Shown one piece after another: positions 6,675-52,474 of a DNA stretch of 53,663 nucleotides. Both the position numbers and the translations under genes were made by a program. The first letter of the stretch is position 1, and each line of letters starts with the position of its first letter. The notes below the pieces were generated by a model, which ran no database searches, was not told the DNA's origin, and saw only the letters and a list, made by a program, of their open reading frames with translations. Source of the stretch: Gloeophyllum trabeum ATCC 11539 (lineage: Eukaryota; Basidiomycota; Agaricomycetes; Gloeophyllales; Gloeophyllaceae); assembly GCF_000344685.1 (NCBI RefSeq), contig NW_006920416.1:1775299-1828961 (forward strand). The letters are read 5' to 3'.

Positions 6675-7973
6675 ATGGAGCTGAACACGCGACTTGCGAA
6701 CAGCCTTCAACTTTTAAGGTGCTTCTGGCTTTCCAAGCTGCATCTTCCAAGGGGTGTCGTTCCTAGCCTGGAGGAGGAAGAGGTTAGCGAGAGAGATCTA
6801 CGGCTTACTCTGCTCAATGATGTGGCCACTCTACTGTGCACCGGCGAGAACGGCCGTTCATTGGCCGTCACGATGGAAAACACGGAGGATGGACTTCGGT
6901 TAACCCTTGCAACCGCTGCCTATCCCCTGGATAGTGAACGTGAAGCCGCCGATAAACTCTTTCGATTATTGCAAGATGAAAAGACCAACATGGAGAGTCT
7001 TTTTAATACCGCCGTATGCAGCGGCATGGAGCGGGTGAAGAGATTTATTGAAGAGGTAAAGAAGAATCTTGAATTGTTCCCGTTAATGTCCCTCATAGAT
7101 GAGGTCAAACCGTGGCGGAGATGCGAGGAGGAGATACCAATGGTTAGTCGGGCGCGGGAGCTATGCGGAGCGGAGATATCTTTGCCCCCGGCAGACCTTC
7201 TGAAGCGACTCTTCATCGCACTCCGCGAACAAATAAATTCCCTGGTCGGTATAATCACGCCAGAGACCATCAGGGATACAATAATGTTGGCTCAAGTATA
7301 CCGCGTTTCTTGCCTCTGCGACATCGTGGGGCGTTCGAGGTTCTTCCGCCGCGTCACTAGATTAAATCACTTCGAGCCCTTCAGCCATCATGCCGCCAGC
7401 CTCATGTCCGCACTGCTGGTTCTCGGGAGATACTCTGGTGCCGCCACGCGACTGTCGAAAAGGGTTCGCAACATCAGACAGCCCATCAGCTATGTATGGG
7501 ACACAGCGATTGCTGCCCCTCCAGCGCCCAAGGAGCTGGTCCTCCACCCTACGGCTTACGAAGCTTTGAGGGCGGGTGATTATGTAGAAGCCACCTCGGG
7601 CGAGGAACGAGACGCAGACGAAGCTATGGTAGAGTCAGAATTCAAGGACGCGTCGTGGGAGAACCGAGTCACGGTCTTCCTCCACCCCGAGCTGCGACTC
7701 ATACTCCTCGCCAAGGATACCACCGAGCGCATCTTAGGTATCAGCGACGATCTCTGCTTTTCCTGCAAGCGGTGGATCGAATATTACAATGAATCCACCG
7801 AGCGGAAGTGGATCGTCCGCCCGGGACTTGACGTACCGGACCCTACTTGGATGTATCCCCAGCAGCATCCATTGGAGCAGCAGATTGAGCCACTTGTTTC
7901 CGAGTGGACCGACACACTGGTCCATTTCCGTCTTGGTGGTCTAACGTTCCGCCGCGCATTGCTCTTATGGTAG
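6675..7973 (+). CDS. A-type deaminase-fold protein (OTT_1508-like), catalytic residues present
   Basis: A single uninterrupted frame of 432 residues, starting at ATG in the favourable context AACCATGG. The first residues (MELNTRLANSLQLLRCFWLS) match the 12690-14012 gene and the 26250-26546 fragment, which fixes the start. Residues 1-330 form a mainly helical region of unknown function shared by the cluster. The C-terminal part has LHPELRLILL with H337-P338-E339, then C361-F-S-C364 and KRWIEYYN, the layout of a zinc-dependent deaminase: His ligand, proton-shuttling Glu, two Cys ligands. Family assignment to the fungal OTT_1508-like deaminases comes from this motif pattern and is moderately sure; the substrate is unknown. 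The A-type copy across the glutaminase pseudogene lies in the opposite orientation. Confidence 0.72.
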   Translation: MELNTRLANSLQLLRCFWLSKLHLPRGVVPSLEEEEVSERDLRLTLLNDVATLLCTGENGRSLAVTMENTEDGLRLTLATAAYPLDSEREAADKLFRLLQDEKTNMESLFNTAVCSGMERVKRFIEEVKKNLELFPLMSLIDEVKPWRRCEEEIPMVSRARELCGAEISLPPADLLKRLFIALREQINSLVGIITPETIRDTIMLAQVYRVSCLCDIVGRSRFFRRVTRLNHFEPFSHHAASLMSALLVLGRYSGAATRLSKRVRNIRQPISYVWDTAIAAPPAPKELVLHPTAYEALRAGDYVEATSGEERDADEAMVESEFKDASWENRVTVFLHPELRLILLAKDTTERILGISDDLCFSCKRWIEYYNESTERKWIVRPGLDVPDPTWMYPQQHPLEQQIEPLVSEWTDTLVHFRLGGLTFRRALLLW

Positions 7974-9038
7974 TGATATGCTCCTGAGATACCGTGCTCC
8001 GTGTGGACTGGTATGTACTAGAGCTGTTCTTTGAGATGCTAAGTGAAGTGATTCGGAATGACTCAAGTGAATTGTCAATACACCGAAAGCGTATAATTAT
8101 CTGTGATTACTGTTCCCTCTCATACTGTCCCTGTGAGAGATTATACCCGCGGCTTTTCTTCCTAGACTGAGATCATTCAGTTCATGCCTGGAATGCCTGC
8201 TCCTCATCCGGCGCCCCCTTTGCCCCAGTACCACATGGGTCCATGGGCGGACATAGCCCCGGTACCCGAGCTACGTCTTTGCCAGTGTTCTACACGGACG
8301 CCGCAATTCCAACCTGCTGTATCTGCCTTCGCAGCGGGATGTAAGCTGATATCACGCTCAGTGCTGACACTGAGAGTATCATTGCTGTGACAGTCATCAA
8401 TGACATGTATGCTCGTGTTCGAGATACGATACGTGACCCGGTATTGCGCACCGGAGTAGATGATCATGACAGGACGACCAGTGACTCTCAGCATTCCTTG
8501 TGAGCAGTCGAGTGGCGTGGCAACGGTCATCGGTCTTTGCCGCAATACCACAACTGCGTACAGCTCGCTAGTGATCTATCTTACCACACGACTCGCGTTG
8601 AAGTCCTCCCTTACTCTCCAAGGTTACTCTCTTGAATGACGAAGTGGACCGTTGAAGTTACCATTAATTATCATTCTTTTGCCTCTCTCGGTGACCATAA
8701 GCTGACCTGAACAGCATCCATCTCCCAATGGACGCTATTTATGGGTAGTATCATGCTCAGTGATGCAAGTTGCAGTGAGCATCTCTCCGAGCCCGCGCTT
8801 TTGCAGACAGGCGGAGGGGCTCTCCCACATGGCGACCAGCGATGCGTAGACTCGGAACACAGGTAGACAGTATGTCGCGGTCCAGCTCAGGATGTTCGCT
8901 GCCCCCGGCCTTGAACTCATTGTTGAAGTCATATGCGATAAAGTATCAGCAGCCCCGCGCGCAGTGATATTGATCCTGTCTGTCCATCCATGCTGATCAT
9001 CACGTACATACGCACACGGAGCCACCCCGCCCCAGTAG
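7974..9038. other. Intergenic, no gene seen
   Basis: Frames are short and overlap on both strands (for example 8204-8551 minus, 8735-9100 minus) without recognisable domains. The right end carries the promoter of the glutaminase-like pseudogene. Confidence 0.4.
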
Positions 9039-9045
9039 TATATAC
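9039..9045 (+). promoter_or_regulatory. TATA box of the glutaminase-like gene
   Basis: TATATAC lies 44 bp upstream of the ATG at 9089, a reasonable distance for a short fungal 5' leader. It is the only such element in the proximal region. Confidence 0.5.
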
Positions 9046-9088
9046 ACCCCGTGCCCTCCTCCCCACTCTGCACAGCACTTCTACACAG

Positions 9089-12689: not shown

Positions 12690-14012
12690 CTACCTTAGAA
12701 GCCGTCCACGAACCGAAAGGCCATAGATGCGGAATGACACCAGTCGATGAGTCCATTCGACAACAAGCGCACCGACTTTTGAGTTACATGGGTGCTCGGG
12801 TGGATACATCCAGGTAGGGTCCGGCATATCAAGCCCCGGGCGGACGTGCCACTTGCGCTCAGTCGACTCGTTGTGGTATTCCACCCACCGCTTGCAGCAG
12901 AAGCAGAGGTCGTCGCTGGCGCCCACGATGCGCTCGGTGGTGGCGTTGGCGAGGAGGATAAGTCGCACCTCCGGGTGGAGGAAGACAGTGGCTAGGTCGT
13001 TCCATACAGTGGCTGTGTCGTTCCCGAGCCCTGAAGTGAGCTTGAGCACGTAGTCGACTTCTGCTCTGTCGTCCTCCTGTTCCTCGCCGGACGATTGTTC
13101 GATGAATCCCCCGGTTGCCAAAGCGTCGTAGACGGTAGGCTGAAGATCGAGAACTCGGAACGCTGGAGGGACTGCGATGTCTGTATCCCACATATAGCTA
13201 ATGGTTCCTTCCAGGGTAGGAATCAAGTTCGAAGTCCGAGCTGCCGCCCCGGCGTATCGACCGAGAGCCAACAGTGCAGACATCAGGCTAGCGGAATGGT
13301 GCCGACAGACGTCGAATCTGCGGAGTTGAGTGAGGCGGCGGAAGAATCGCGATCGCCCCAAGACATCACAGAGGCAACACGTGCGGTATACTCGAGTCAA
13401 CGTCGTTCCCTCCTTGATATTCTCGGGCGTGATGGTGCCGACCAGTGAATGTATATCCTCACGCAGCGCCATGAAAAGTCGCTTCAGATAGTCAGCGGGG
13501 GAAAGGGATTCTCTTGCTTCAAATTGCTCCTGGACCCATTCAAGTCTCGGTATCTCCGTTTTGCAGTCTCCCCACATGTCAACCTCGCGTATGAATGACG
13601 CCTCTGTGAAGAACTTGAGGTGCGTCTTTACGTCTCCGATCAATTTCTTGACCCGCTCCACGCCGGTGCAAATGGCTGTGTTGAAAAGGCTCTCCATGTG
13701 GGTGTTCTTGTCTTGAAATAGCCGAAAGAGGTTATTGACCACCTGCCGCTCACTTTCCAAAGGCTCGGCCGCTGTTGCAAGCGTGAATCTCCACCCCTCC
13801 TCAGTTTTATCCATCGTGATGGCCAATGAATGACCCTTTTCTCCGGTACACAGCAGTGTAGCAAGATCATTCAGAAGCGTAATGTTTCGGTCCTTCTCTC
13901 TCAGAGTTTCCTCCACGATGCTGGGAACAACGCCTTCGGGAAGGGGTAATTTAGAGAGCCAGAAGCACCTCAAGATTTGCAGATCGTTCGCAAGCCGCGT
14001 ATTCCGCTCCAT
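12690..14012 (-). CDS. A-type deaminase-fold protein (OTT_1508-like), catalytic residues present
   Basis: The coding region is one exon of 440 residues starting MERNTRLANDLQILRCFWLS at 14012. The open frame continues upstream to 14072, but those 20 residues lie inside a 5'-UTR intron (14015-14076), so I chose the internal Met, which aligns with the sister gene at 6675. The N-terminal helical region (LLNDLATLLCTGEKGHSLAI) is followed by the C-terminal FLHPEVRLILL with H346-P347-E348 and C370-F-C-C373 KRWVEYHN. Zinc ligands and catalytic Glu are in place. It is a diverged paralog of the 6675 gene in inverted orientation across the glutaminase pseudogene. Substrate and partners are unknown; an enzymatic role is inferred only from the motif. 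Confidence 0.72.
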   Translation of the reverse strand: MERNTRLANDLQILRCFWLSKLPLPEGVVPSIVEETLREKDRNITLLNDLATLLCTGEKGHSLAITMDKTEEGWRFTLATAAEPLESERQVVNNLFRLFQDKNTHMESLFNTAICTGVERVKKLIGDVKTHLKFFTEASFIREVDMWGDCKTEIPRLEWVQEQFEARESLSPADYLKRLFMALREDIHSLVGTITPENIKEGTTLTRVYRTCCLCDVLGRSRFFRRLTQLRRFDVCRHHSASLMSALLALGRYAGAAARTSNLIPTLEGTISYMWDTDIAVPPAFRVLDLQPTVYDALATGGFIEQSSGEEQEDDRAEVDYVLKLTSGLGNDTATVWNDLATVFLHPEVRLILLANATTERIVGASDDLCFCCKRWVEYHNESTERKWHVRPGLDMPDPTWMYPPEHPCNSKVGALVVEWTHRLVSFRIYGLSVRGRLLR

Positions 14013-16658: not shown

Positions 16659-17106
16659 TGTTAGGAAGTGATGTCCTAACTAGTCATCTTGAGATAACTG
16701 GGCCATGTGCCAACAGTTATGTTGTCACTACCTCAGTAAGCGTACTGAAAGGTAGGTCTGGCCGGGCCAATGCCAACGGTCAAGTCAAGAGTCCAGGTAA
16801 TCGCTGTATTCAACAGGAGGTTGAACTAAGGAATACATGGGTTTTCCTACAGTATATATAGTAACTGGTATAGGGGTTGATACCCAAAGAAGAGAACAAT
16901 AAGAAAGGACGCGTAAGCTATCCTGTGAGAACGTAACTCAGAGAAATGAGAAATACAAGGGCACCCATTGGTAGAAGGTGAGTCAAGGGAGATAACGTGT
17001 GGGAAGAAGATAGCGTCCATGGGAAGTTCTACTCAGAGAACGGTACTGTCCAGTAGCAATGCTCGGAAGGGAAATGGAATGAGATAAGCATGGGAAAATC
17101 ATAACA
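16659..17106 (+). mobile_element. LTR-1 copy adjoining truncated copia
   Basis: A full 448-bp LTR-1 with TG...CA ends. The flanks GCAAG and CTAAA do not match, and the copia sequence on the left does not resume on the right, so this is a rearrangement breakpoint rather than a simple insertion. Confidence 0.85.
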
Positions 17107-22305: not shown

Positions 22306-23643
22306 TTAGTAGTCCCTATCATTAGGCCACATTACATTGGAAATACTGATGCCTCTCAGGTTTTGTACCTTACTGTAGACCTTCTCCTCGAAGGCGTATG
22401 CGTGAGTCAGGGCAAAGGTCGGGTCCGCTTCCTCCAAAGATGGTCCAAAGTCCCAGTCCGTCTTCTCTGCCACGTTGTACTCTTTGACCCATGCCTCGGT
22501 CGAGAGGCATACCCCATCGCTGCAGCCTATGAGCTTGAGATACGTCTTCGGTGCCAACAGTATGAGCCGGAGGGCAGGGTGGGTCGAAACGACCATCTTC
22601 TCCCTATACTTCGGGCATTCTGTCCCGAAGTACGTTTCAGGGTTTCCCATCCACGCTGGCAAATCAGTCCGGATGACTTCCAGGTAGGATCGCTTCATGA
22701 TGACGGGATGATGGTTAACGATCCCCGTATCGGTGTCGGAGCACCACTCCCAAGATATTTTCCTCTCCGAATATCTGACCAATGCTTTCAGACGTTCGAG
22801 ACAACCATAGTATCTTCCGAGCATGGCCAGTTTGTACCTGAAAGACCCGAGAAAAAGCGTGATCCCTTGACACGCTGGGTGGTCGATCAGGGCAGAGAAC
22901 ACAGGAGCACGAGAGAGGTAATGCGCAAAAATAATCATGGAGTTGATCTGTCCCGCACTGTGCGAGGGGGGGCTCCCATCTCGTTTGTCTGCTGATTCAC
23001 AGAATTCGGAAGTAGATTTGTGAAGGTGACGGAACGCAATCATGAGACATTCGAGAGCCGATGCTCCTTCAAGGTCTTGCAGCTTCTTTCTCATGATTTC
23101 GAATCCTGGCAATTCGTCCTCGTGGCGCCCCCAGCTGTATTTCTCTAGGAGCTCTGTAAATCCGCCTCCGACGAATTTTTTGGCGGATTTGGCCACTTGC
23201 TCAGCCAAGCCCGTAATCCGGAGCATCGCGTAGCTTCTCATAGTGTCCATCATGTGTGCTTCGAATCTCTCTCCCGGGAGACACAATGCTTCAAAAAACC
23301 GCTGAGCGGCACTCCGGTCAGCTGACCCCGGCACATCGTTGGTGGCCAGCATGAAGTGGATGGCTCTGAGACTCCTTTCCTCCATTACTGCAGCCACTAT
23401 CTTGCCGCGTTCCCCGGTCGAAAGAGCCATGGCTACGTCATCAAGGAGTTGAAGCTTCCCATTTGCGGCCTCTGCTGTGTACACCGCAGTGGGTCGGGCA
23501 GATACAAGTCGTGGAACAATGTGCAGGATTTGTAGTTCTTCGGTGAGTCGTCCCTGTTTCTCTTCTTACCCATACCAGGCCTTTCAGTATATGGCCAAAT
23601 CCACGGAACATAGGAATATCGTACCGTTCGTAAGACTCTCCAT
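22306..23643 (-). CDS. B-type deaminase-fold protein, catalytic Glu and one Cys lost
   Basis: Two exons: 23625-23643 (19 nt, MESLTN plus one base) and 22306-23564, joined across a 60-bp intron (GTACGA to GGGTAAG). The product is 425 residues, MESLTNEEKQGRLTEELQIL onward. The first exon was found by comparison with the sister genes and corrects an N-terminally short open frame. Residues 40-330 form the shared helical region (LLDDVAMALSTGERGKIVAA, MRSYAMLRITGLAEQVAK). The deaminase-like region reads STHPALRLILL with H335-P336-A337, then C359-L-S-T362. The catalytic Glu is Ala and the second zinc Cys is Thr. The frame is intact and the fold core is conserved, so a non-catalytic role is likely. 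Confidence 0.72.
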
Positions 23644-24526
23644 GATCGACAAGACAGAAGCTGAGTATTCGTGTTGTCCCGGATGTTTTCATGCACTGGC
23701 TTAAATACAGTCATAGGTCTTATTCCCAAGTCGTTTCACGGCAGAAGTCTGTGTCATCGTTGCACTACAAGCATGTGGCTACAAGGATGTGATAAATCTG
23801 ATCCGAGTCATCCGACTCACAATGTTGATCATGAAGCATCCGACTCGGCCGCACTTCGGATCATATCGAAGATACTTACGAGCTGGATGGACAGCATACA
23901 GGAAAAGTGTCTAATGGAGAGAATAAAATGTAATATGTGTACAGTAAAGCTAGTCGTCCCTCCCATATACACTAAGTATCCCATCTCTCAGTTGGCATGA
24001 CGGTGTTCTGGGGCAGGCAGTTGTCATGTGACAATGCAACCTTCCCCTGTCACTGGGCGAACGGAAGTGAAAGGGAGACCAAGATCAAAGCAACACAAGA
24101 CAACTACCATCGGCCTCGACGGGACTCATTCTTTTTAGTGTTCGAGTTTCATGAGTAATCGCTGCAATCGCCTTGCCGGGTTCTTGGTACAAGAGCATCC
24201 TTGTACCGGAGAGCCCGGAGACTGTAACAGTCTGATCTTTACAATGTTTGCCATTAGAAAGTCAAGCGACAAGGGACGGCTGTCATTTGTTCCGAGTGAA
24301 CTCAGTTGCATCAATTATAGAGGCAAACATCCGGGGCTGCCGATCGCCAGCAGCGTTGAGTTTCACTTGAAAGTAGGCCGACCTAGTTATTGTAAGTCCT
24401 CCAGACGTGCGCTGAAAGGGCATAAGGCAGTGAACAGAAGACTGAACTCGAAAATATAAATCATGACAGTACTTCGAGGGCATTCGTACTTCACGTGGGA
24501 CGACGAATATACACACACTGTAAAGA
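23644..24526. other. Intergenic between divergent B- and C-type genes
   Basis: The 883 bp between two divergently oriented family members must hold both promoters. No other gene is visible, and I could not place a convincing TATA box. Confidence 0.4.
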
Positions 24527-26001
24527 ATGGAGGCATTTTCCAGTACGTCAATCGGATACACTGTGACCCACTCCACTCACTGGCACATACAGAGCGCAGC
24601 AGGCAGGAGAAGCTGTCTGTTTACCTAAAGGTGATGGAATTATACATGGGGTATAATTGGCGCCCGACATCGAATCGCAATGCCTCAGCCAAGAGTCCAC
24701 ATTCCATCGGACGAAGTAACATGGAGATGCGCTCAAAGCAGGAAGACATGATTGCGAAGCTCTTAGACCAGCTTGCGCTCTTGCTGGCAACTGGGCGTCG
24801 AGGGGAGGTGGTAGCAACGATCTTCACAGACATGACTTTGTCGGAGGTCCAGATATCCTTCAATGAGCCACCTTCTGCGGGACAGAAGAAGCAGGCGAAG
24901 GAGTTGTTTGACCTACTACGCGGCACGACACAGGCGAACACAATCGAAAGCTTGGGAAAGCTGCGCGGATTTGCGCACAGCCACTGTGCCGAGACCATCA
25001 AGGCCAGAATGGAGAGGATCCGCAGATCCCTGCACGGCTCACCAGTTACGACCCGGGAATTGAGGCGGGTGATAGAGGAGCTGAAAGCAGGTGGCGACAA
25101 ACCCATATCTCAGTGGTCTGACCCTCCCATCCGTGATTGGAAGAACCTTCGATTGGTGTATGAGAATGTTGACAATCTTCACGCCTCAGACCTGCTCTCT
25201 AGGATGCTGGATGACACTTTGAGGTGGTCTCAGAACTGGGGTACAGGGAATGAGACGAACCTGCCCGATGACGAGGAAGTTCAGCGCAGGTGTTTGATTG
25301 CGCACGTCCTCGGTGGTGCAACGATCCTGAAGGATGACTTGCCGCCCATCATCAAGTTATCTTCGCGTCTGCGCAAGCTGGGTAGATTCTGGCACGGTCT
25401 TGAGATGGTCATTGTGTGGGCGTCCAATCAATTTGATCAGGGGAACAGTATCCGTTACAGATGGATCCCTGATGACCCCAGATTGGACACACCCATACCG
25501 TCTTTCAAGCTGGGCACGCAAGCCAGCGCAATCATCCAATACCTCATGAAAGTGAGGCAATCCTCTCTCACATATGAGGAACTTGACCACGCACGGTTGA
25601 ATGCAATCCTGGCCAAACTAAATCCGAATGAGATGATATGTCCGACTTGTCACTGTGAAGTGCGCCAGATCTTGGCCGAGCGAAGGCATGATAATAAACC
25701 CGGCTCCATAGGGTGCAACAAGCGAAGCTGCCTCACGTGCAAGCTCTGGATCGAATGCTACAACCGGGTGGAACGAACCGCATGGGCAACCAACGGGTCC
25801 CACTACAAGCCCTACCGTAACTGGCGTCTTCCTGGAGTCTATACCCATATTGAGGATGAGGTGATCGACATAATGGAGGCAATGCTATTTTCATATCTAG
25901 TCCAGAGGGTGATCACCCAGGAATTGCCGCCTATGCGATCGGATGACGAGGCGAGCTTCCCCAAAGGCTCGCCGACGTTGGCATTGGAGCTAATGGAATA
26001 G
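24527..26001 (+). CDS. C-type deaminase-fold protein with full canonical active site
   Basis: Proposed exons: 24527-24542 (MEAFS plus one base) and 24593-26001, with a 50-bp intron GTACGT...TACAG, giving 474 residues. An unspliced frame from 24463 is also open, but the short exon and phase-1 intron match the other genes. The N-terminus RSRQEKLSVYLKVMELYMG is followed by LLDQLALLLATGRRGEVVAT, the shared region. The catalytic region has CHCEVRQIL with H359-C360-E361, then IGCNKRSC385-L-T-C388 KLWIECYN. This is the textbook zinc-deaminase His/Glu/Cys-Cys set. The C-terminus (ITQELPPMRSDDEASFPKGS) is specific to this subfamily. Of the clearly active-looking members this is one of two, so it is a good candidate for the ancestral function. 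Substrate unknown. Confidence 0.75.
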
Positions 26002-26249: not shown

Positions 26250-26546
26250 TTAGGTGGCCCTCCTTTCAGCAGCGCGACGTTCACTATCCAGAGGGTCGGC
26301 AGCGGTAGCAAGCGTTAACCGCAGCCCCTCCTCCTCCGTATTTTCCATCGAGACCGCCACCGAACGGCCCTGCTCGCCGGTACACAGCAGCGTGGGCACA
26401 TCATTGCGCAGCGTGAGGCGCGGATCCCTCTCGCTCCCCTCTTCGTCCTCCAGGCTCGGAACGACGCCCCGTGGGAGGTGCAGCTTGGAAAGCCAGAAGC
26501 ACCGCAAGAGTTGCAGGCTGTTCGCCAGTCGCGCGCTCCGCTCCAT
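26250..26546 (-). pseudogene. 5' fragment of an A-type deaminase-fold gene
   Basis: From the ATG at 26546 the minus strand reads MERSARLANSLQLLRCFWLS, then KLHLPRGVVPSLEDEEGSER and LCTGEQGRSVAVSMENTEEE. It is close to the first about 90 residues of the 6675 gene and ends after DPLDSERRAAE, where homology stops near 26262. The catalytic domain is absent. An acceptor-like CTCCACAG precedes the ATG, as in the 14012 gene. It lies about 1.3 kb from the second glutaminase copy, repeating the A-type/glutaminase association of 6.7-14 kb. Confidence 0.8.
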
Positions 26547-27019
26547 CGCCGTCTGTGGAGGTTGCGTGATAGAGTGAACCGCCGGTGTTGACTGTGGCAA
26601 AGACCGAGAACCGTCGCCGCGCCACTCGGCTCGCGATCAGCGAATCACAATCCGCCCCTGCTCATGTACTAGTACAAAGGATGTTCACTGCTGACTGCTC
26701 CCTGCTAGCCTGAGCACTCTCATCCTGTCTCGATCGTCCTACCAACAGCGTTTCTCGCTGTCTCGTGTACGTCAACATGTACGGAATCCTGCCCGCGTTG
26801 TAGACGCTGAAGGGACTAGTTATAGCAGTCCGTCCGTTACGCCTCTGTCGGCATTCACTGATCTATGCCGGACTAAGTCCCCTATCATTCCCTACCCCAG
26901 TTGCGCACACGATCCGCCGAAGCACTCATCCGGCGTCGCGTACAGGCGTGGCGCGTACCTCGCATCCAGAACGTGCGTGTACTTCCGTTTTTCTTCCCGG
27001 CGCGCGCGCAATCGATACC
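26547..27019. other. Spacer with a short copy of a dispersed repeat
   Basis: At 26590-26770 the words GCCGAGAACCGTCGC and CGCCACTCGGCTCGC recur in the repeat blocks at 29838 and 37768. No gene. Confidence 0.5.
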
Positions 27020-27310
27020 CTGTGGGCAGCCAGTCAATCCGATCGTGGGGAACAGCATTGGACATGGCTGGATCCCGGAGAGCTCTGAGTCGGATCTGAA
27101 CATACCTCCCTTCAAGTTGGACGTTGAACCGCTTGAGGTCATCAAGTACCTCATAGAAGTGAGTGACTCCGCTCCAGCTATGAAGAGCTTGATCATGCGC
27201 AGATCGCCGCCATCTTCTACTTATGGAAACTGAACGAAACACTCGGGCCAAGATGCCATTGTGAAGTACGCCAGGTTTTGGTGTTTCGAACTCATGAGGG
27301 GAAGCGAAAC
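27020..27310 (+). pseudogene. Relic of a C-type deaminase-fold gene retaining the HCE motif
   Basis: The plus strand reads NPIVGNSIGHGWIPESSESD and FKLDVEPLEVIKYLIEVSDS, matching the region just before the active site in the C-type genes. After a one-base frameshift the next frame gives AIFYLWKLNETLGPRCHCEV and RQVLVFRTHEGK. His-Cys-Glu is encoded at 27257-27265. The Cys-x-x-Cys part and everything upstream of about residue 300 are gone. Only comparison with 24527-26001 makes it visible, because the frames are short. Confidence 0.7.
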
Positions 27311-27361
27311 ACTGCAGCAGGCACTCAGAGTCAACCCATCCGACTCTATCTTCGATTGTAT

Positions 27362-27892
27362 ATGGACGCTGCTGGTCTTACCAACGGTACGATGTTACCG
27401 TAATATACGATCCTGGGGGTGCACTGAAAGAGCGCTTTGGCAAGACGAGAAACAGGCACACCTCTCGGAGGACCTCCAGGTCCTGCACATCGTCCCGCAC
27501 CTCGTACGTCTCCGCCCCGCGGGCGTGTACGCCACCGCGGCGAGAGACAAGGTCCTGAGGCTCTTGGCCGACGTCGTGAGCGCGCTCTCGACCGGCCGAA
27601 CGGTCACGGTCGCGACGGGCGGCGCGGGGCGCTTCACGCTCGCCTTCGGCGGTTTCTCGCGGCGCTGTGTAATCTCGGGGAGTGGCTCGAGGCGCGGGTG
27701 CCGGATGCGGTGAGGGGGTATGCGATGCCGCGCATCACGCGCTTGGCTCGGCAGGTCGCAGGCGACTGCAAGAAGTTCGTCGAGAGGGGTTCATCGCGTC
27801 GGAGGTGCTCGGGAAGCATACCTGGGGATGCCGCGAGGAGGAATCACCCGGATTCGAGGCCATGGAGGCGAAGCTCCCGGGAGGACTGAATA
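27362..27892 (+). pseudogene. 5' part of a B-type deaminase-fold gene, frameshifted and truncated
   Basis: Exon 1 at 27362-27386 encodes MDAAGLTN. A 58-bp intron (27387-27444, GTACGA to GGCAAG) leads to DEKQAHLSEDLQVLHIVPHL. The frame then gives LLADVVSALSTGRTVTVA, but the segment after FTLAFGG is deleted and shifted. The following pieces are in two other frames: EWLEARVPDAVRGYAMPRIT and KHTWGCREEESPGFEAM. At about 27892 the gene breaks into glutaminase sequence. No catalytic region is left. The B-type exon-intron structure is preserved at the 5' end, which confirms the intron model used for the intact genes. Confidence 0.78.
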
Positions 27893-32052: not shown

Positions 32053-33402
32053 TCAAGATGGCCACAACAAATTTTGAACGGTGACACCTCTCAAATTCCT
32101 CACCATCTCATAGACATTCCCCTCGAACGCATATTGGTGGGTGAGAGCAAACGTCGGGTCCGCGTCTCTCAGGGATGGACCAAATTCCCAGTTCGTGCTT
32201 TCCGCCTTATTGTACTCTCTAATCCACGCCTCGGATGCGAGGCAGATCCCCTCACTGCAGCCTACGAGCTGCGGCTGAGCCTGCGTCGCCGAAAGAATCA
32301 GACGGATCGCGGGATGAGTCGAGACCGTGATTGCTTGCTTGTACCTCCTAGGTACGCCCCCGAAAGTGAACTCTGGAAACACCGTCCTGGTTTCCAATCT
32401 CCATTCTGGAAGGTCAGTTGTGATGACCTCCAAGTGGGATCGGCGAATAGCAACGAGACGATTGTTGGTGACACCTCCAGCATCCTTGCGGCACCATTCG
32501 TATGTTATATTCCTGTTTGAGAGCGTCATAAGCGCCTTCAAGCGGCTGAGGCAGCCCCAATATCTTCCTAGCGTTGCGAGTCTGTATCGGAAAGATCCCA
32601 GAAAGAACACGAGCCTTCGACAAGCTCGGTGGTTGAGAAGGAGGGTGAGAATCGGAACCTGAGCGAGGTAGTACGCAACGACTATCATCCAGTTCAGCCG
32701 CCCCACATCGTATGCAGGGGTAGGACTGGCCGCGTCATTCACTGCACGCCAGAAGTTCCCAGTGGCTTCGCCGAGGTATTTGAACATGGTGACGAGACAG
32801 TCGGGTACGGAGGCCCCTTCGACTTGAAGCTCGGGATGTAGTTCCTTCATGTGTCTGAATCCTGGCAATTCCTTTTCGTGCCTACTCCACCTGTACCCGT
32901 CAATAAGGCCCAGGTAGTCACCTCGAACGAAGTCCTCGGACGCGTCGGCCACTTGTTTGGCCAACTTCGCGATCCGCGGAATTGCATAGCTCCTCATGGC
33001 ATTCATCATACGCTCCTCAAACCGCTCTTCGGGACCACGAAGCGCTCCAAAGAAGCGCTCGACAGCGGCTTCGTCGCTCGAAGTAGGCTGTCCATTGACG
33101 GCCAGCACGAAGTGCACGAAATCCGAGTCGTTACCCCGCTCTTCCATTGTGATCGCCACCGTCTTCTCAGGCACCCCCGTCGAAACTGCCATAGCTATGT
33201 CATCAAGGAGTTGAAGCTTCTGGTCTCGATACTGGGGTGTGTCGACTGCTGGGGGATGTGATTCTGCAAGTCGTGGTATAATATGAAGGATTTGTAATTC
33301 TTCGGTGAGGCGTTCTTGTAATTCGTCTTTCCCTGGCATTTTATCAGTATATTTGCTTCGATGCGCTTCGGGAGCACCCCTACCGTTGGCTAGGCTTGTC
33401 AT
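32053..33402 (-). CDS. B-type deaminase-fold protein, catalytic Glu and one Cys lost
   Basis: Exon 1 is 33384-33402 (MTSLAN plus one base; an ATG six bases further upstream is also in frame). A 51-bp intron (33333-33383, GTAGGG to TGCCAG) leads to exon 2, 32053-33332. The product is 432 residues. The intron length is a multiple of three without a stop, so an unspliced 451-residue frame is also open; family comparison favours splicing. The helical region LLDDIAMAVSTGVPEKTVAI and MRSYAIPRIAKLAKQVADAS is followed by STHPAIRLILS with H346-P347-A348 and C370-L-A-S373. Glu is replaced by Ala and the second Cys by Ser. The C-terminal block FGPSLRDADPTFALTHQYAF is B-type specific. Confidence 0.72.
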   Translation of the reverse strand: MTSLANGRGAPEAHRSKYTDKMPGKDELQERLTEELQILHIIPRLAESHPPAVDTPQYRDQKLQLLDDIAMAVSTGVPEKTVAITMEERGNDSDFVHFVLAVNGQPTSSDEAAVERFFGALRGPEERFEERMMNAMRSYAIPRIAKLAKQVADASEDFVRGDYLGLIDGYRWSRHEKELPGFRHMKELHPELQVEGASVPDCLVTMFKYLGEATGNFWRAVNDAASPTPAYDVGRLNWMIVVAYYLAQVPILTLLLNHRACRRLVFFLGSFRYRLATLGRYWGCLSRLKALMTLSNRNITYEWCRKDAGGVTNNRLVAIRRSHLEVITTDLPEWRLETRTVFPEFTFGGVPRRYKQAITVSTHPAIRLILSATQAQPQLVGCSEGICLASEAWIREYNKAESTNWEFGPSLRDADPTFALTHQYAFEGNVYEMVRNLRGVTVQNLLWPS

Positions 33403-33912
33403 GGTCATCGAAAGAAAGACGTGAAAGCTAAATTGGTAACAGACTCGGACGCTGACACGCTCCTAGAACATGTGGATAGTTCTGACTAAATAGTCATAAG
33501 TCGAAAGAACGACAAGCTCCGCTGTGAAGATGCGTCAGGTAAGTGATTCCCATACATCTGAACTCGAGTAAAGTATCCGTAGATCTTTGCTTTGTGAGTC
33601 ATCGAGACACGATGTAGGGGATTGTTCCATGGGCCGTCAGCCACTGCGGATGTTACAACGCTTAGCTCACGCGGTATCAGGCGACGACCCCAGAGACGTC
33701 CTTAAGTACGCACCAAGTACAGCTGGCGAGTCAGTCCCCATTCGCTGAGGTGTCTGATCATGCTCACGCCCGGGACCCTGCCATTGAATACATCGTGACG
33801 AGCTAGTCCACGCTTATGACACTTCTTTAGTTCAAAACCGGGTGTTTGCTTGAGAGGAGCATTTAACTAAGCACATGGTACAATGTATGTATACAGGGAG
33901 GTTGTGGAGGAC
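33403..33912. other. Intergenic between tandem B-type genes
   Basis: It holds the promoter of the 33402 gene and the 3' end of the next gene. No gene seen. Confidence 0.4.
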
Positions 33913-35256
33913 CTAATAGTCCATTGGACTTGGGTCGAGCCAATCGATGAGACTTATTTCCTTCGCCTCCTTTATCGACTGGTAGACATCCTCCTCGAAC
34001 GGAAACCGATGTGTCAGAGCCCACGTTGAATCCACTTCTTGCAGAGAAGGACCTGCTGTCCACATGGCGCCTGGGTGTGCGTCATTGTACCGTGAGATCC
34101 ACTCTGAGCAAGCATAGCAGACCCCGCCGCTGCACCCTACAAGCCTGGTTTGTGCGGTAGAACCCAATTTAAGAATGAGGCGGATGGTGGGGTGAGTGGA
34201 GACCGTCAGGGTAGGCTTGTACTGGCTGCATATTTTGCCAAAGGTCGAATCTGATACTGATATTGCGATACGAGTGGCCCTGTCTTCGGCGGCCTTGATA
34301 ACTTCCAGAGCAGATCGATGCATGACCACAGGACGATCATTGACGATTCCCGCAACATCATCGGTGCACCATTCATATGTTATCTTCATTTCTGTGCGTT
34401 TCGCAAGGGTACGCAACCGCTCAAGGCAGGCATGATACCTCCCAAGCATTGCGAGTTTATACCTCAACCCCCCCACAAAAAGCACAATGACTGCTCGAGT
34501 GCTGCGGCGGATGAGGCGATTGAATATGGGAGCCTTGGAGAGATGGTGTGCTAAGACCAAAAGCCCGTTGACGAACATTGCATCATGTGTGGTGAATGAT
34601 GGGTTGTCCGCAGACTGGTGCACCTCTGAGGTACGCTCCCGAAGACGCTCGAGAAGAATGGTGAGAGCCTCCGGCACTGATGCGATTTCAAGCTCTGGGA
34701 AACGGTTTCTAAACGCTTGAAATCCCGGTACCTCTTGTACGTGAGGACCCCAGGCGTCGTCGGCGATGTCTTGTATGAGGTCGTCCTGGAGGAACTGCTC
34801 GATAGACTCGGCTACTTGTCCCGACAGCCTCGCGATGCGAGGCATGGCATAACTCCTCATTGCCTCCAGCATGTGCGGCACAAAATGGTCTCCAGGATAC
34901 AACAGAGCTTTGAAAAATCGCTCAGCGGCGGCCTCCTCGCGCGAGGAAGGCAGCCCATTAACAACCAAAATGAAGTGGACGGAACTGGCACCCCTTTCTT
35001 CCATTGCATCCCCTACTTTCTTGTTGCATTCTCCAGTAGCAATAGCTGAAGCAATGTCATCAAGGATAGTGAGCTTCTCATCCTTGAACTTTGTGTGATA
35101 GATTCCGTTGGGGAAGGAGGTTATAGGCGGTGGAACCAATTCGATGATCTGCAGCTCTTCAGTGAGTCGAGCGTGCTTGTGGTCTGAGCGAAAGCCTGTA
35201 TGAGTGTATGGAGAGCTGCGGAGAACTAGAGATTTCGCACCATTGGTAAGATTCAT
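33913..35256 (-). CDS. B-type deaminase-fold protein, catalytic Glu lost, CxxC kept
   Basis: Exon 1, 35241-35256, encodes MNLTN plus one base. A 57-bp intron (35184-35240, GTGCGA to CGCTCAG) is followed by exon 2, 33913-35183, giving 428 residues. The longer open frame from 35343 adds a hydrophobic leader and reads through the intron; I prefer the conserved short first exon. The central region has LTILDDIASAIATGECNKKV and MRSYAMPRIARLSGQVAESI. The deaminase-like part reads STHPTIRLILK with H336-P337-T338 and C361-Y-A-C364 SEWISRYN. The zinc ligands are complete but the catalytic Glu is Thr, so it may bind zinc without catalysis. It is divergent with the next gene, sharing a 383-bp promoter region. 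Confidence 0.72.
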   Translation of the reverse strand: MNLTNGAKSLVLRSSPYTHTGFRSDHKHARLTEELQIIELVPPPITSFPNGIYHTKFKDEKLTILDDIASAIATGECNKKVGDAMEERGASSVHFILVVNGLPSSREEAAAERFFKALLYPGDHFVPHMLEAMRSYAMPRIARLSGQVAESIEQFLQDDLIQDIADDAWGPHVQEVPGFQAFRNRFPELEIASVPEALTILLERLRERTSEVHQSADNPSFTTHDAMFVNGLLVLAHHLSKAPIFNRLIRRSTRAVIVLFVGGLRYKLAMLGRYHACLERLRTLAKRTEMKITYEWCTDDVAGIVNDRPVVMHRSALEVIKAAEDRATRIAISVSDSTFGKICSQYKPTLTVSTHPTIRLILKLGSTAQTRLVGCSGGVCYACSEWISRYNDAHPGAMWTAGPSLQEVDSTWALTHRFPFEEDVYQSIKEAKEISLIDWLDPSPMDY

Positions 35257-35639: not shown

Positions 35640-36999
35640 ATGGAGAGCCTCACAAATGGTACGATGTTCAATGGCTACCCAATCTGCGAGTGTACTGAAA
35701 AGACGATGTCATGTTTAAGACGAAAAGCAGCAGCGACTTACCGAAGAACTACAGATACTTCAAATCATGCCGCGACTTAGAATCGCGCTGCCCGCGCGGC
35801 CGAGAGGTGTCGCCGCTATGCCGGCCAACGATCGGAAGCTCAAGCTCCTTGATGACATAGCCATGGCTGTCTCAACGGGGGAGAGTGGCAAGACGGTAGC
35901 TGTCGTAGTGCAAGAAAGGGACAACCGTGCTGTACACTTCACGCTGGCCGTAAACGGGCTGCCTGGGCCACGCGACAAAGCCGCTGCTGAGCAGTTTTTT
36001 GGATCCTTGCTTCACCCAGAGGAGCAGTTTGAGGTACACATGATGAACACCATAAGAAGCTACGCCATGCCGCGCATTGAGCGCCTGGCTAAGAAAGTCA
36101 CCGACGCCTCCGAGATGTTCCTCGGGGGTGGATTTATAGACTTGCTGGAGGACTGCAGCTGGGGACCTCACAAAGACCAATTGCCGGGATTCGAATTCAT
36201 GAAAACAAAGCTTGCACGTCTTGAAGGTGCCTCCATGCCCACATGTCTCGCAATGGTATTCAGCCACCTCCACGAATCCGCCGCCAAGCTTTCTGAGCCA
36301 GCAAATGAATCAGCCGGCGGTTCCCCCTCGCATGCGAAGTGGATTAATTCGATTATCCTCTTTGCGTATTACCTGGCTCGAGCTTCCGTCTTCTCCATCC
36401 TCGCCAGCCACCCAGAATGCAAAGGGAATACGCGTTTCCTCAGCTTGTTCAGGTATAGGCTATCCATGCTCGGAAGATACTTTGGCTGTCTAGAGCGTCT
36501 GAAAGCACTTGTCCACTACGCTGGAGGGAATATATCATGGGAGTGGTACTGCGAAACTGGTGCGGGGATCGTCAACGATTACCCGGTTACTATGCGTCGA
36601 TCCCATCTGGAAATCATTAGATCTGGGTTGCCCCAGTGGATGGATGACGATGACAGAGAGGAGGCAGACATGATTTTGGGGAAAGAATGTCCAAAATACA
36701 AGAAGACGGTTCTAGTTTCGACTCACCCCGCTCTCCGGCTCATTCTTGGGACCAGAGGGTCTCATCTCCAACTCATAGGTTGCAGTGATGGGATCTGTCT
36801 CACCACCGGAGAGTGGATAGAGGAATATAACTTGGCGAAGAAGACAGAGTGGCGGTTCGGCCCGTCCTTGAGAGAATCCGACCCATCATTCGCTCTGACA
36901 CATATATTTTCATTCGAGGACAAGGTCTACGATATAGTTGAAAATATGAGGGGCCTTGCCGTTAACGACGAGATGAGGCCTCGCGATCACGATTACTAA
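35640..36999 (+). CDS. B-type deaminase-fold protein, catalytic Glu and one Cys lost
   Basis: Exon 1 is 35640-35658 (MESLTN plus one base, in the context AACCATGG), the intron is 35659-35719 (61 bp, GTACGA to TGTTTAAG), and exon 2 is 35720-36999. The product is 432 residues beginning MESLTNDEKQQRLTEELQIL. An open frame starting later, at 35767, misses the conserved N-terminus. The middle has LLDDIAMAVSTGESGKTVAV and IRSYAMPRIERLAKKVTDAS. The C-terminal region has STHPALRLILG with H342-P343-A344 and C366-L-T-T369 GEWIEEYN. It groups with the 22306 gene by its N-terminus and by the same double loss of catalytic residues. Role unknown; an enzymatic role is unlikely. Confidence 0.74.
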
Positions 37000-41832: not shown

Positions 41833-42852
41833 TCAATACTGCAGATTCCAGGACGGAAACATTGCCGCAAACTTCCTTTCAAGGGTGACGGAGGATTCTC
41901 TTTCCCAGGGTCTCGCAAGGGAATCCATGAGCATAGTAGGATCAACACCTGCGGGGAGAGCAGGAATGTGTTCCTCTGATGCAGAATCGTTGGGAACCCA
42001 GCCGTGTCCGATAACGCTCCCCGCCTCCGATTGGCATCTCGCCCAGTCCAGGACGTCCCGCGAGCCACGCCAGAACATACCTAGCTTTAGCAGGCGTCTC
42101 CTGAGTTGCGCGATGGACTTATTGTCCCCGCTCAGGACGCGGGATGAGCCGAGGACGTGTGCGACGAGGCACATGGGCTCGAGTTCGTCCTCGCCCGGCA
42201 GGACGATGTCCTTCGCCTCTTCGCACCACTCAACCCGCGTGTACGTTTCGTCGAGCATCCTCATGGCGAGATCCGCGGCGCGCAGGCTCGCTACCTCCCC
42301 GTAGACCCCCCGGAGGGCGTCCCAACCAGGGACCCAGTCGGACGCGGAGACAGGTTTGTCATCCTCCTTCTCCCATATCTCAATGGCCCTCCCTAACTCC
42401 TCCATTGTATGCTGATCGCCGTATAAGGACTTCCAGATTCCCGACATCCGCGCCTTGATGCTCGCGGCGCCGTATGTGTAGGTCATCTTACGAAGCTGTA
42501 CGTGCGTCTCTGCCGCGTTCGCAGGTGCATAGGCGCGCAGCAGGGCAAAGATCTCCTCGGCGTGCTTCTCTTGGGACGGGGAAGGCCCGTTGCTGGCGCA
42601 AAGGAGTAACCGCGACATTGACGCGTCATCGAAGGCGGCGGCCACCGCGCCTCCTGAGTCGCCGGTGATCAGCAATGTAAACCCGTCCAACAACTTCATG
42701 ATGCGGTCGACGCTGGTTGAACGTTCAGTGCGACGGTTGTGCGGATCGTCTTTTCGCTTGATGCGACTGGATGCTGTCCCGCCATCTACGCTGCTGTACA
42801 GCTCGACCATCTTCAACAAGAGAGATAGTGTGTCTCTCTTTGCTTGTACCAT
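41833..42852 (-). pseudogene. C-type deaminase-fold gene truncated before the active site
   Basis: An open frame of 339 residues begins MVQAKRDTLSLLLKMVELYS. An upstream phase-1 exon, as in the sister genes, may have been lost or may use GTGAGT near 42893, so the start is uncertain. It follows the C-type N-terminal region closely: LLDGFTLLITGDSGGAVAAA, YGAASIKARMSGIWKSLYGD, CLVAHVLGSSRVLSGDNKSI and GSVIGHGWVPND. It then stops at SWNLQY, about where relatives approach His-Cys-Glu. The catalytic region is absent downstream; instead the gene end is tandemly duplicated. It could still encode the N-terminal domain alone, because the frame is otherwise clean. Confidence 0.68.
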
Positions 42853-43950
42853 GAGCGGCGCCGGTGAAGGTTTCTCTAGTGCGGGATAGACTCACCCGAT
42901 TGAGAAATCGGACAAGGTAAACCAGTTGTTGATATTTCAGGGTATGTGCCACAGGAAGATAGATAGTGGACGCCAACGTCGCTTTTTATGTCCTCCGGCA
43001 GTCATCTTTTTCGACGTCCTTGTAACAATCTGCGTGCTTGTAAAATCCGAGCACTCCGAGCAAAACATCTCAAAGTATCAGGAGATGAAACATACCCTTC
43101 CTGAAACCCGTGATGCTCGCCGTCGATCCCGGCACAGTCGAGTTTTGAGCTCATCAAGGCAACTTGAAGGCTGCCAGTAATAGTGGACGAATATGACCGT
43201 CACCAATCGGACGGCTACTACAGATCAGACAGTGAGACGATGTGCTTGTCTGAGTCTCCGAGCCCGGGCCTTCCGTTAATAGATTAACCGTGATCCATCC
43301 ATTTCTGTAACTTAATGAACCACAAATGAGTAATGTAGCCATACACTGACTGGCAATGTACAAGAAATCATTGTCAGTCTATTTTTTGACAGGCTCACAG
43401 GTTCTCAATGTACAGGCTTGTTACCGCTTGTATGGGATGCATTTGTATCCTTTCACTTTTGTATCTTTTGTCACAGTGTTCATAGAATAATGAATCAAAA
43501 AATGGAATATATTTTTGATATTATATTCTAAATATAGGAAAATAATGAATGGACCCTACACAGCTCCGACAGGGCTCACCTACCAGCTCACCTCACCTCG
43601 TACTGCATGCTTCATGTGAGTGTCTGGTGATACATTACATGAGACATCGAAGAGAAGGACGAGGAGTAACCAATAACCGAATGTATCAATGTATCTGCTA
43701 TGCTTCAGCAATGTTTCTCAACCCCGAGCCCTTTGTCCCAGAGCTGCACCGGGATGCCAGCTGAGCTTGAATATGACAGCCCCGGCATCCCGGCATCGAG
43801 ACCCAGATCGGGATTTGATCTGAGCAGTTGCCAATAATGGCTGGCTGGGTATACCTGGCACTGCAGGCACCAGAAAAATGCGGAACAATATCGAAAAATC
43901 GGAATATATTTGTGGGGCCCAGTGCGACTACATTACAGCTATAAATAAGG
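42853..43950. other. AT-rich intergenic region
   Basis: Strongly AT-rich near 43480-43545 (ATATTTTTGATATTATATTC). Nothing coding was recognised. The right part may be the decayed upstream portion of the recombinase relic. Confidence 0.4.
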
Positions 43951-48012: not shown

Positions 48013-48020
48013 CTACCGAC

Positions 48021-48568: not shown

Positions 48569-50118
48569 CTAGGGGGCAATCGAGAACGCGATGTCGGTCT
48601 TCGGCGATCCGCTGGGCAAGCTTGCGTCATCATCTGATTGCATTGCCGGAAGGTCTTGTGTAATTTTCCCTCTGACCAGATAGTTGAATGCTTCGTCTTC
48701 AACCAACTTCAACAACGCCTCGTCGACTTCATCGAAGATAGGATTGGCGACAACAGTTCCAGGGAACTGCCATTGCATGTAGTATTTCATGTGGCTTCCG
48801 AGGGTCGACCATCGGGTGCGTCGTATCTGATTGAAAAGGTCTATCCATTTCTGGCAGGTGAAGCAGCTTCGCTTGTTGCACGTTATAATTCTGGGCATCT
48901 TCTGCTTGTCGTGGTCAAGGTATGCCATGATGATAGCTACTTCACAGTGAAGTACTGGATGTACTAACTCGCCTGAATTCCAGCCGTGAAATATGGCCTT
49001 GAGTACTTTCCAGTCAATGTCGTTCAAGGGGACATTGGGACTCCTGGAATTCGCAAGGTATTCCACGACCACCTCTGGCCGAGTGCCTAACTTGAAAGCG
49101 CGCATACGCTTGTGTGATTGAGTACCCTCGGGAATCCAGCTGTATTGGATACTCTTCCGCTCTTCATGACACTGTATCGCCCAGTCCATAAGGCTCAGGA
49201 TACCATGCCAAAATCTTCCCAGCTTCATCAGACGCGACACAAGTTTCCGGATTGAGATATGCTGGCTTATCATAACTCGGGATACGCCAAGGATGTGAGC
49301 AAGAAGACAGGTGCGCTGAATCTCATCGTCGTCGGGCACGATGATATTATTGACCTCTTTCCATTTCCCAGCCTGCGTATACAGATCTCCAACCATCTGC
49401 CTGACGAGCTGTGATGGGAGAAGGTCCGATATGTTGATATTGCTGTATACCAGTCCTAGGTTTTGGTAACCAGGGACCACAGACTCGGAAACAGGTGTTT
49501 CGTCTTCCTTTTCCAAGTTTTCGATGGCCTGTTCTAATTCCTTCATAGTGTCTCTGTCGCCGTATAACGACTTCCAGATCTTCCACATTCGCACCTTGAT
49601 TGTCTGAGCGCAGAATGTATATATCATCTTGCGTAGCCGTACGCGGTTTTCCACCACATTTTCTCTCCTGGTGGCACGCAACAAGGTGAAGAATGCCTCT
49701 GTATGTTGCCGCTGTGCCGACGAAGGTACTCCATTGGCAGAGAGTCGTACCTGCGCTTGTGAGAAGTCCGTGAATACCGCGGACACAACCTCTCCTGGTC
49801 GTCCTGTGACCACGAATAATGTGATCTGGTCTAACACCTCTACTATAGCATTTTCGTCGTCGGAGCGCAGGCTTCGGTTACTGCGTGGGAGACCTCCGGG
49901 CGACTGGGTAGGTCTCGGATCCTGCCTGTCACCCTTACGCGGCGTATACGCCATATACCTGTCCAACATTCTCAGCGAAATGGAGAGTTTCTCCTGATTG
50001 CTACGCTCTAAGCAAAACATATGTTGGCCGATGACTCCCAAATAAGCATATGATTCCAGGGGGTGGCCTTACCTGCATATTCCCGCAACTCCTCTGGTGA
50101 AGCATTTGCTTGCTGCAT
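48569..50118 (-). CDS. C-type deaminase-fold protein with full canonical active site
   Basis: Exon 1, 50073-50118, encodes MQQANASPEELREYA plus one base. A 65-bp intron (50008-50072, CAG|GTAAGG to TGCTTAG) leads to exon 2, 48569-50007, for 494 residues. The splice corrects an open frame that starts inside the intron at 50041. The shared region has VLDQITLFVVTGRPGEVVSA and FCAQTIKVRMWKIWKSLYGD. The active site is LHCEVAIIM with H369-C370-E371 and TCNKRSC397-F-T-C400 QKWIDLFN, a complete zinc-deaminase set. The C-terminus (ITQDLPAMQSDDDASLPSGS) is nearly that of the 24527 gene, so both are under constraint over their full length. Substrate unknown; nucleic acid or nucleoside is the family expectation. 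Confidence 0.77.
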
Positions 50119-50264: not shown

Positions 50265-50433
50265 TTCTTTTGAGAACCTTGTACTGAAGAAATCTACGGA
50301 TCTAGGGAGCAGAACAAACACCCGCTTGTGGTGCATCTTTCGCGTGAGGTTCTTTTGAGAACCTTGTACTGAAGAAATCTACGGATCTAGGGAGCAGAAC
50401 AAACACCCGCTTGTGGTGCATCTTTCGCGTGAG
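50265..50433 (+). repeat. 85-bp tandem duplication
   Basis: The unit beginning TTCTTTTGAGAACCTTGTAC occurs twice head to tail with no differences that I could see. It lies in a gene-free region, and the identity suggests it is recent. Confidence 0.9.
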
Positions 50434-51038
50434 GGTTATCAATGGCCGAGGCGTTTCGGTGCTTGTCATGACGATTCGACTACTGGATTTGAGAAGGAGC
50501 GGCTCCGTGAGTACAATCGCCATCCACACCTCCTCATGCCTGGATCCGCAACAAGGTGTCCTTGAATAACAGTCATGAGACAGTTCACGGTTGTCAGTAG
50601 TTTAGATTAAGATCCTCGCATCCTGACGGTGCCAGAATTGCATGCCCTCGGTCACAGTTTTTTGCGCCATACATATACTAGCCCTACAATGAATGCAAGA
50701 GACGTGATGAGTGATATGCGATGATACGCGGAAGACAATCTCTAATAGTCACTCACTCCGCCCACGTCTGATAAAACGTTACAGCAATACCTTAGATCAC
50801 AGCCCGATGGATAAGGACAGTTCTCCTGTAACTGACCGTGTTTCCCGACGTATCATCGTGGTCGATCATCGACCAGCAACATTGAAAAGGAAGACTTTCC
50901 GACTTGGCCCGAAGTAGTCCCGACTCCACCGATGTGTTCCGTCTTGAAGCCCGAGCCCTTCGTCTAGCGTCCCTGAAGCCCGAGTCCGTCGTCTGGTTTC
51001 TCATTATGCCAGATCGAGGATAACGGCGTCCATCGCGG

Positions 51039-51045
51039 TATAAAA
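51039..51045 (+). promoter_or_regulatory. TATA box of the B-type gene
   Basis: TATAAAA lies 76 bp upstream of the ATG at 51121, a normal core-promoter position. Confidence 0.65.
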
Positions 51046-51120
51046 TTGGCTCACAGAGCATACTCATTCGCCTCATTGATATCCATCTCTCTTACACGAG
51101 TGACCCCTACTCTCACTACA

Positions 51121-52474
51121 ATGACCCTCACAAACGGTAGGACGGCCCTCGAACTCTCTGCCCTTCGGGTATACTGACGCTCACGTTTCTCAAGACGACA
51201 AGCAAGCTCGACTCACTGAAGAGCTGCAGCTTATCCAACTCATGCCTCCATACATAGGCATTTTTCCGAGTGGAATTGACAACACCGAGTCTTCAAATAA
51301 GAAGATCAATCTCCTTGATGATATAGCTATGGCTATCGCTACTGCAGTTCACAACAGAGTGGGGGTTGTGATGGAAGAGAGGAATGACGCGGTGCATTTT
51401 ACTCTGGCTGTTAATGGATCGCCTTCCTCGGACGACAGAGAAGCCGCTGAGCGGTTTTTCAAAGCTCTGCTGCAGCAGGAAGGAGACTTTGCATTGCACA
51501 TGCTGGACATCATGAGGAGTTATGCCATGCCTCGCATCACGAGCCTGGCTGGGCAAGTGGCCGAGTCCATCGGGCAGTTCCTCCGCGCGGACTTGATACG
51601 TTGTGTTGCCAACGACGACTCGGCACGTCATGACGAAGAAATACCGGGTTTCAAATTTCTCGCAGATAAGCTACCTGAGCTCCGAGGAACGTCGGTGCTG
51701 GAGGCTCTCTCGTTCCTTTTCAAGCGCCTTCAGGAACGTGCCGCGGCGGTGCATCGGTCTGCCAGTGACCCAGCATTCCCCGCACATGATGCAAGTCTCG
51801 TCAACGGGGTGCTATTCTTGGCATACCAACTCGCGAAGGCGCCCATATTTGGTCGCATCTTGGTTGATCGTAACACTCGGCCACCATCTGTGCATTTCGT
51901 TGGGAGGTGCAGGTATACAATTGCGATGCTGGGAAGATATTGGGGATGCCTGGAGCGTCTGCGTACGCTTGTAAAGCTGACGAGAAGGAATATCACCTAT
52001 GAGTGGTGCCCCGACGATGTTGAGGGGATTGTCAATGATCAACCCATCGCCATGCGCCGGTCTGCTCTTCAGGTCATCAAAGCAGTCTCAGACTGGGGGA
52101 GACGTACCGTAATGTCGGTATCAGATTCGGCCTTCAACAGGTTATGCCTGCAGTACAAGGACACCGTGACGGTGTCCACTCACCCTGCTATTCGTTTGAT
52201 TCTTAAAGCAGGGACCAATGCGGAGTCAGGACAAAGCAGACTCGTAGGCTGTAGCGGCGGAGTCTGCTGGACCTGTTCCGAGTGGATTGCACTGTACAAT
52301 AGCACCGTGCACCAAGACAATCAATGGAGGATCGGTCCATCCTTGCTGGAGGTGGACACAACGTTCGCTCTGACACACCGATATCCATTCGAGGAGGACG
52401 TATACGAGTCAGCCAAGGACTTCAAGGCAATGACTCTCCACAATTGGCTAGACCCAAATCCGAGGGACTACTAG
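51121..52474 (+). CDS. B-type deaminase-fold protein, catalytic Glu lost, CxxC kept
   Basis: Exon 1, 51121-51136, encodes MTLTN plus one base. A 58-bp intron (51137-51194, GTAGGA to TTTCTCAAG) leads to exon 2, 51195-52474, for 431 residues beginning MTLTNDDKQARLTEELQLIQ. The middle contains LLDDIAMAIATAVHNRVGVV and MRSYAMPRITSLAGQVAESI. The C-terminal region reads STHPAIRLILK with H335-P336-A337 and C363-W-T-C366 SEWIALYN. The catalytic Glu is Ala while both Cys are kept. It pairs with the 33913 gene by its five-residue exon 1, its intact CxxC and its C-terminus (NWLDPNPRDY against DWLDPSPMDY). Likely expressed: good TATA box, start and splice sites. Function unknown. Confidence 0.75.

Follow-up and report, generated by a model that had tools for sequence, protein, structure and literature searches.

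A cluster of OTT_1508-type deaminase genes with a conserved pseudo-deaminase branch in Gloeophyllum trabeum

Members of the family at the locus

Gloeophyllum trabeum is a brown-rot basidiomycete, and the stretch of its DNA analysed here (the window, 53,663 nucleotides; positions 1775299-1828961 of contig C7, NW_006920416.1, in the 35.5 Mb genome of strain ATCC 11539) carries a local expansion of a deaminase-type gene family. Coordinates are those of the window unless a contig is named. A sequence-only reading had reported thirteen members or relics of one family within 46 kb, and when the ten long frames (352-513 amino acids, aa) were compared with the window by tblastn the same total came out, ten frames and three relics, in 12 hit clusters, one of which (27020-27879) contains a C-type relic followed by a B-type relic. 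The three motif states denoted A, B and C had been given correctly, as judged by alignment and codons. The nine full-length members were aligned, the truncated frame at 41833 being left out of the motif alignment. C genes carry HCE..CxTC (2/2 intact genes) and A genes HPE..CFxC (2/2 in the window), and both keep HxE...CxxC. The B genes have HPA or HPT in place of the Glu motif in 5/5 cases and HxE...CxxC in 0/5, and are therefore filed as pseudo-deaminase paralogues rather than as deaminases. The absence of Glu from the whole B type stood as it had been described. Its treatment as a single state did not, as it splits into B1 (33913 and 51125), which retains CxxC as CYAC and CWTC, and B2 (22306, 32053 and 35719), in which the second zinc Cys is lost (CLST, CLAS and CLTT). 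His and the first Cys are retained in 9/9 aligned members, again as had been read.

The members were scored against Pfam PF14441 (OTT_1508_deam), a model of 64 positions that covers just the region around HxE and CxxC. The two intact C genes came over the curated cut-off (2/10 members), the A and B1 genes were sub-threshold (4/10), and the B2 genes and the truncated C gene were unmatched (4/10). One intact C gene, predicted to be active, lies at 24460..26001 on the + strand (putative start; given as 24527 in the earlier reading; HCE and CLTC; PF14441 2.8e-10). The other, GLOTRDRAFT_93902, also predicted to be active, lies at 48569..50118 on the - strand and encodes 494 aa (HCE and CFTC; 3.9e-13); its product already had PF14441 listed as a precomputed annotation. 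The third C-type gene (41833..42891, -) is broken and truncated before the motif. Beyond its stop the frame reads DHCHTY, roughly at the place of the HCE motif in other members, and its C-terminal part was sought downstream and not found (best E 4.3). Both A genes are predicted to be active: 6675..7973 (+) encodes 432 aa from its ATG, with HPE and CFSC (PF14441 E 0.021), and 12690..14012 (-) encodes 440 aa, with HPE and CFCC (E 0.0011); their products are 61% identical over 431 codons.

The two B1 genes are located at 33913..35256 (-, HPT, PF14441 E 0.019) and 51121..52474 (+, HPA, E 0.039), and the three B2 genes at 22306..23643 (-), 32053..33408 (-) and 35640..36999 (+), all with HPA; the last is GLOTRDRAFT_129737, referred to as 35719. 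The relics comprise the N-terminal part of an A-type gene at 26283..26552 (-), of which 26283-26546 is 84% identical to the 6675 product, the C-terminal part of a C-type gene at 27020..27304 (+; 27257 in the earlier reading), in which HCE is still legible in a broken frame, and the N-terminal part of a B-type gene at about 27402..27879 (+), spread over two frames.

Order of losses and constraint on the B genes

A gene tree and selection analysis for each subfamily, proposed as a check on the sequence-only reading, separated A, B and C, with omega of 0.217, 0.322 and 0.277 respectively. The tree is unrooted and has 11 rows, namely the ten window members and one segment of a copy on contig C20. 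A, B, C, B1 and B2 each form one side of a branch, with support of 100/99, 98/97, 100/100, 84/91 and 90/91; a caution from the tool concerns the branches of A and C, which are long and meet. Following established knowledge of zinc deaminases, we take the tetrad as ancestral, in which case a single loss of Glu before the radiation of the B genes and a single loss of the second Cys before that of B2 would suffice to account for the motif states. The proposed gradient from active to inactive genes is accordingly present as a series on the tree; it is not seen along the DNA, where the order and strand of the ten frames are A+, A-, B-, C+, B-, B-, B+, C(broken)-, C-, B+. Similarly, the residues fit a passage from presumed enzyme to presumed pseudo-enzyme in which Glu was lost first and the second Cys later, and the part of this claim that has to be given up is the place of the A type in it: since A keeps the full catalytic set, it is neither degraded nor an intermediate.

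In order to estimate constraint, omega was obtained from a codon model on fixed trees, with twice the log-likelihood difference (2dlnL) taken against omega=1. The value for the five B genes rests on 408 codons (2dlnL 244.9); 2dlnL was 125.0 for the two A genes, 104.0 for the three C genes (mainly N-terminal codons), and 78.8 for the two intact C genes, whose omega was 0.254. For the deaminase half and the N-terminal part, the descriptive values were 0.268/0.337 (B), 0.148/0.226 (A) and 0.315/0.214 (intact C). Pairwise synonymous divergence (dS) is 0.86-2.19, synonymous change being partly saturated; in the B pair 33913/51125, with dS 0.86, omega was 0.34 (2dlnL 61.0).

The B genes also share an exon structure. 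In 5/5, one can place a micro-exon that ends with LTN (LAN in a single case), an intron of 57-61 bp bounded by GT..AG, and a common start of exon 2. Among the public models examined, the only one to contain a B intron is that of 35719, which includes the micro-exon, while the models for 32053 (P0004) and 33913 (P0005) continue straight through the intron. The remaining micro-exons and introns are predicted from sequence: from 23643 with a 60 bp intron in the 22306 gene, with 57 bp introns in 32053 and 33913, and from 51121 with a 58 bp intron in the 51125 gene. The model of the 48569 C gene has a phase-1 intron immediately before the place that matches the B intron, and we infer that this intron is ancestral.

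These data bear on the possibility that the B genes are merely decaying deaminase relics, in repeat-rich surroundings close to the end of a contig. Four other members in the window are indeed broken (the three relics and 41833), and transposon fragments are interspersed among the genes. Nevertheless, none of the five B frames is interrupted over some 420 codons or more; omega is near 0.3, and the splice signals agree. When neutral drift was simulated, with divergence fixed by us at roughly half of the pairwise dS, 0/2000 frames remained free of stops for each of the five genes. Decay was thus rejected as an explanation and appears to us highly improbable: unlike decaying genes, the B genes are under purifying selection. 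That they have lost catalytic residues yet appear to be preserved suggests that they now have a non-enzymatic job.

Family assignment and genomic surroundings

The sequence-only reading had assigned the whole family to OTT_1508. By Pfam score, the C genes belong to this deaminase family as predicted proteins; the A and B genes are placed in it through homology only, the three types being homologous across most of their length (profile-profile probability 97.3-99.8%). The predicted structure of the 48569 product has a deaminase-like order of secondary-structure elements, with weak matches to APOBEC3 and DYW. With Foldseek, neither the C model nor the B model had a match at E<=0.001; for C, APOBEC3G occupied 4 of the best 50 rows (E 3.9-4.7), and for the whole protein of GLOTRDRAFT_129737 zinc deaminases took 0 of the best 50 VIA rows, in which helical bundles dominate. 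A sequence search of the PDB with the nine-member profile gave 8ugc_A (FD15) with E 1e-7 at profile positions 112-222, a match that is unexplained, and two weaker ones (0.074 and 1.1); with C alone the best E was 0.2. Protein searches for wider relatives gave only proteins of the same contig, and as they depend on shared five-residue words they cannot show the family to be unique. None was confirmed in prokaryote genomes among 174 pattern-matching stretches. PADLOC, with which 6/10 members were scanned, gave a single match, weak and odd, to Cas11e (E 0.0034), which was disregarded.

Outside the window, A-type copies were found at C7:1758 kb and C7:1843-1846 kb (both in pieces) and at C20:257.6 kb (with frame changes), whereas B and C types were not found elsewhere in the genome by single-protein searches that scored the best candidates only; all genome-wide copy counts are lower bounds. 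The broken A copy at C7:1843 kb (L046 4709-5813) also reads HPA, a separate loss of Glu in a dead gene. Against the 12690 product it is 97% identical at residues 55-239 and 84% at 239-422, and gene conversion together with a second Glu loss may explain both the step in identity and the HPA. Contig C7 ends at 1857171, which leaves about 11-99 kb between the family copies at 1758-1846 kb and the end of the contig; a telomere is not evidenced, the final 9.2 kb of C7 holding 1 TTAGGG and 3 CCCTAA words.

Between the deaminase genes lie pieces of two glutaminase A-type genes (DUF5127, GtaA hairpin) at 9540-11474 (+) and 28106-29598 (+), which perhaps arose by segmental duplication. Fragments of a copia-type reverse transcriptase (RVT_2) and of an integrase core (rva_4) are found at 1881-2336 (-) and 19428-19880 (-). 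A direct repeat of 300 bases, 97% identical (4571-4870 and 16678-16977, 12.1 kb apart), flanks both A genes and possibly represents long terminal repeats. The region between the 48569 C gene and the 51125 B gene contains a perfect tandem duplication of 85 bases at 50265-50434.

Possible roles and comparison with known systems

The link between OLD deaminases and antiviral RNA editing in fungi is recent. The primary study of the OLD-ZAO system (Honda et al. 2025) is cited here through PMC12754623 and PMC13327615. According to the former, the Neurospora crassa OLD proteins have an OTT_1508-like domain with HXE..CXXC and perform A-to-I editing, favouring hairpin loops and sites preceded by U; OLD corrects a premature UAG in the transcript of the neighbouring ZAO transcription factor, thereby setting off a costly antiviral response, and its full activity is thought to require unidentified cofactors (PMC12754623). 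The C and A genes encode predicted zinc deaminases; by analogy with the OLD proteins, these would most likely be A-to-I RNA editors that take part in a programme of response to viruses or conflict. The genome-defence context suggested for the cluster can be upheld only through this analogy with the OLD virus response, and the antiviral role is itself termed indirect and of unknown generality in PMC13327615; the mutator context suggested alongside it found no support.

On balance, we lean slightly towards an OLD-type cluster in which active-type enzymes stand beside a conserved branch of pseudo-deaminases that are partners or regulators of their active paralogues. The B proteins lack the proton-shuttling Glu and, in three genes, the second zinc Cys as well; they would have no catalytic activity of their own and would most likely stand to the active paralogues as Tad3 stands to Tad2. 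This step draws on two precedents, the OLD system and the Tad2-Tad3 pair.

The arrangement of the genes gives a lead in the same direction. Both intact C genes stand head-to-head with a B gene, 24460 with 22306 at about 0.8 kb (assuming the first ATG) and 48569 with 51125 at 1.0 kb; the B genes 33913 and 35640 are also head-to-head, with start codons 383 bp apart. However, when the ten frames (relics excluded) were given shuffled labels and strands, two head-to-head C-B pairs arose in 6.3% of 200,000 trials, and the pairing was rejected as proof of partnership (P 0.063). Co-duplication of C and B was likewise dropped: dS is 2.16 for the intact C pair and 2.19 for the two B genes facing them, both near saturation, and lower (1.67-1.87) for the other five B1-B2 pairs. 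In seven upstream or intergenic regions, no common promoter word was more widespread than in 10 Markov-resampled controls, at word lengths of 7-11 bases and allowing up to one mismatch.

It would not be unreasonable to propose, as a rather less probable alternative, that the B products are independent RNA-binding or decoy proteins, e.g. dominant-negative substrate competitors, and no partners of C or A. Constraint in both halves of B agrees with it, and two further points speak for it: the shuffling leaves the pairing of B with C unproven, and with one zinc Cys missing from B2 the metal site need not persist. Nothing specific contradicts it, but on the Tad2-Tad3 precedent a role as partner is no less likely. 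A role in self/non-self recognition or intraspecific conflict, resembling heteroincompatibility, appears in PMC3482391; the cluster would then hold toxin-derived deaminases, with B as their matching immunity or inhibitor partners. The relics and the local turnover fit such a role, which we regard as improbable, given that the fungal OLD proteins studied so far edit RNA in a virus response (PMC12754623).

Returning to the B proteins as partners or regulators, 5/9 full-length paralogues are conserved pseudo-deaminases and offer concrete candidates, from a fungus that decays wood, for OLD cofactors or for brakes, while the nested series, Glu lost and then the zinc Cys, allows one to study how an editing enzyme turns into a non-enzyme. 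A limited literature search found no publication on a constrained pseudo-deaminase clade in G. trabeum and no mention of the three GLOTRDRAFT names looked for; such a clade beside active-type genes, and its nested losses, appear to be new.

Among known families, the cluster resembles PF14441 in its two intact C genes, which exceed the cut-off, and differs in A and B1, which stay below threshold, and in B2, which the model does not reach. With OLD-ZAO it shares duplicated genes in a fungus and, in C (and in A by motif), the HxE..CxxC of the OTT_1508-like domain. It differs in that its host is a basidiomycete, in which group the OLD-ZAO system is reported for one species in PMC12754623, in its extra conserved clade without catalytic residues, and in having no detected zinc-finger partner nearby. 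Strict C2H2 and Zn2Cys6 patterns gave 0 matches in the window, in about 18 kb to its left and 28 kb to its right, and in 9 kb around the C20 copy, where a loose C2H2 pattern gave 4 (2 overlapping), judged to be chance, and CCHC gave 1; among the 24 PF00096 matches listed, none lies on C7 or C20. Such patterns can miss fingers split by introns or of another type, and the type assumed may not be that of ZAO. The cluster thus has, as far as its sequence indicates, OLD-family enzymes but no recognisable OLD-ZAO unit. Tentatively, and with less confidence than in a partner or regulator role at large, one may picture an OLD branch that lacks a local ZAO, where C or A has co-evolved with B and the two work together as a heteromeric editor or as sensor and inhibitor. 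Divergent enzyme/pseudo-enzyme gene pairs would then be repeated near a contig end, and the Tad2-Tad3 arrangement would have been re-invented independently in a second deaminase family.

The comparison with Tad2-Tad3 (ADAT2-ADAT3) has limits, as it concerns another deaminase family, the cluster holds several B copies, of which B2 is also without the second zinc Cys, and Tad2-Tad3 is a complex whereas a complex of B with C or A is putative. The likeness lies in a catalytic subunit accompanied by a paralogue without the same Glu, which the structural subunit of Tad2-Tad3 has lost according to PMC11087585, in the CxxC kept by B1, and in selection acting on that paralogue, as observed here for 5/5 B genes.
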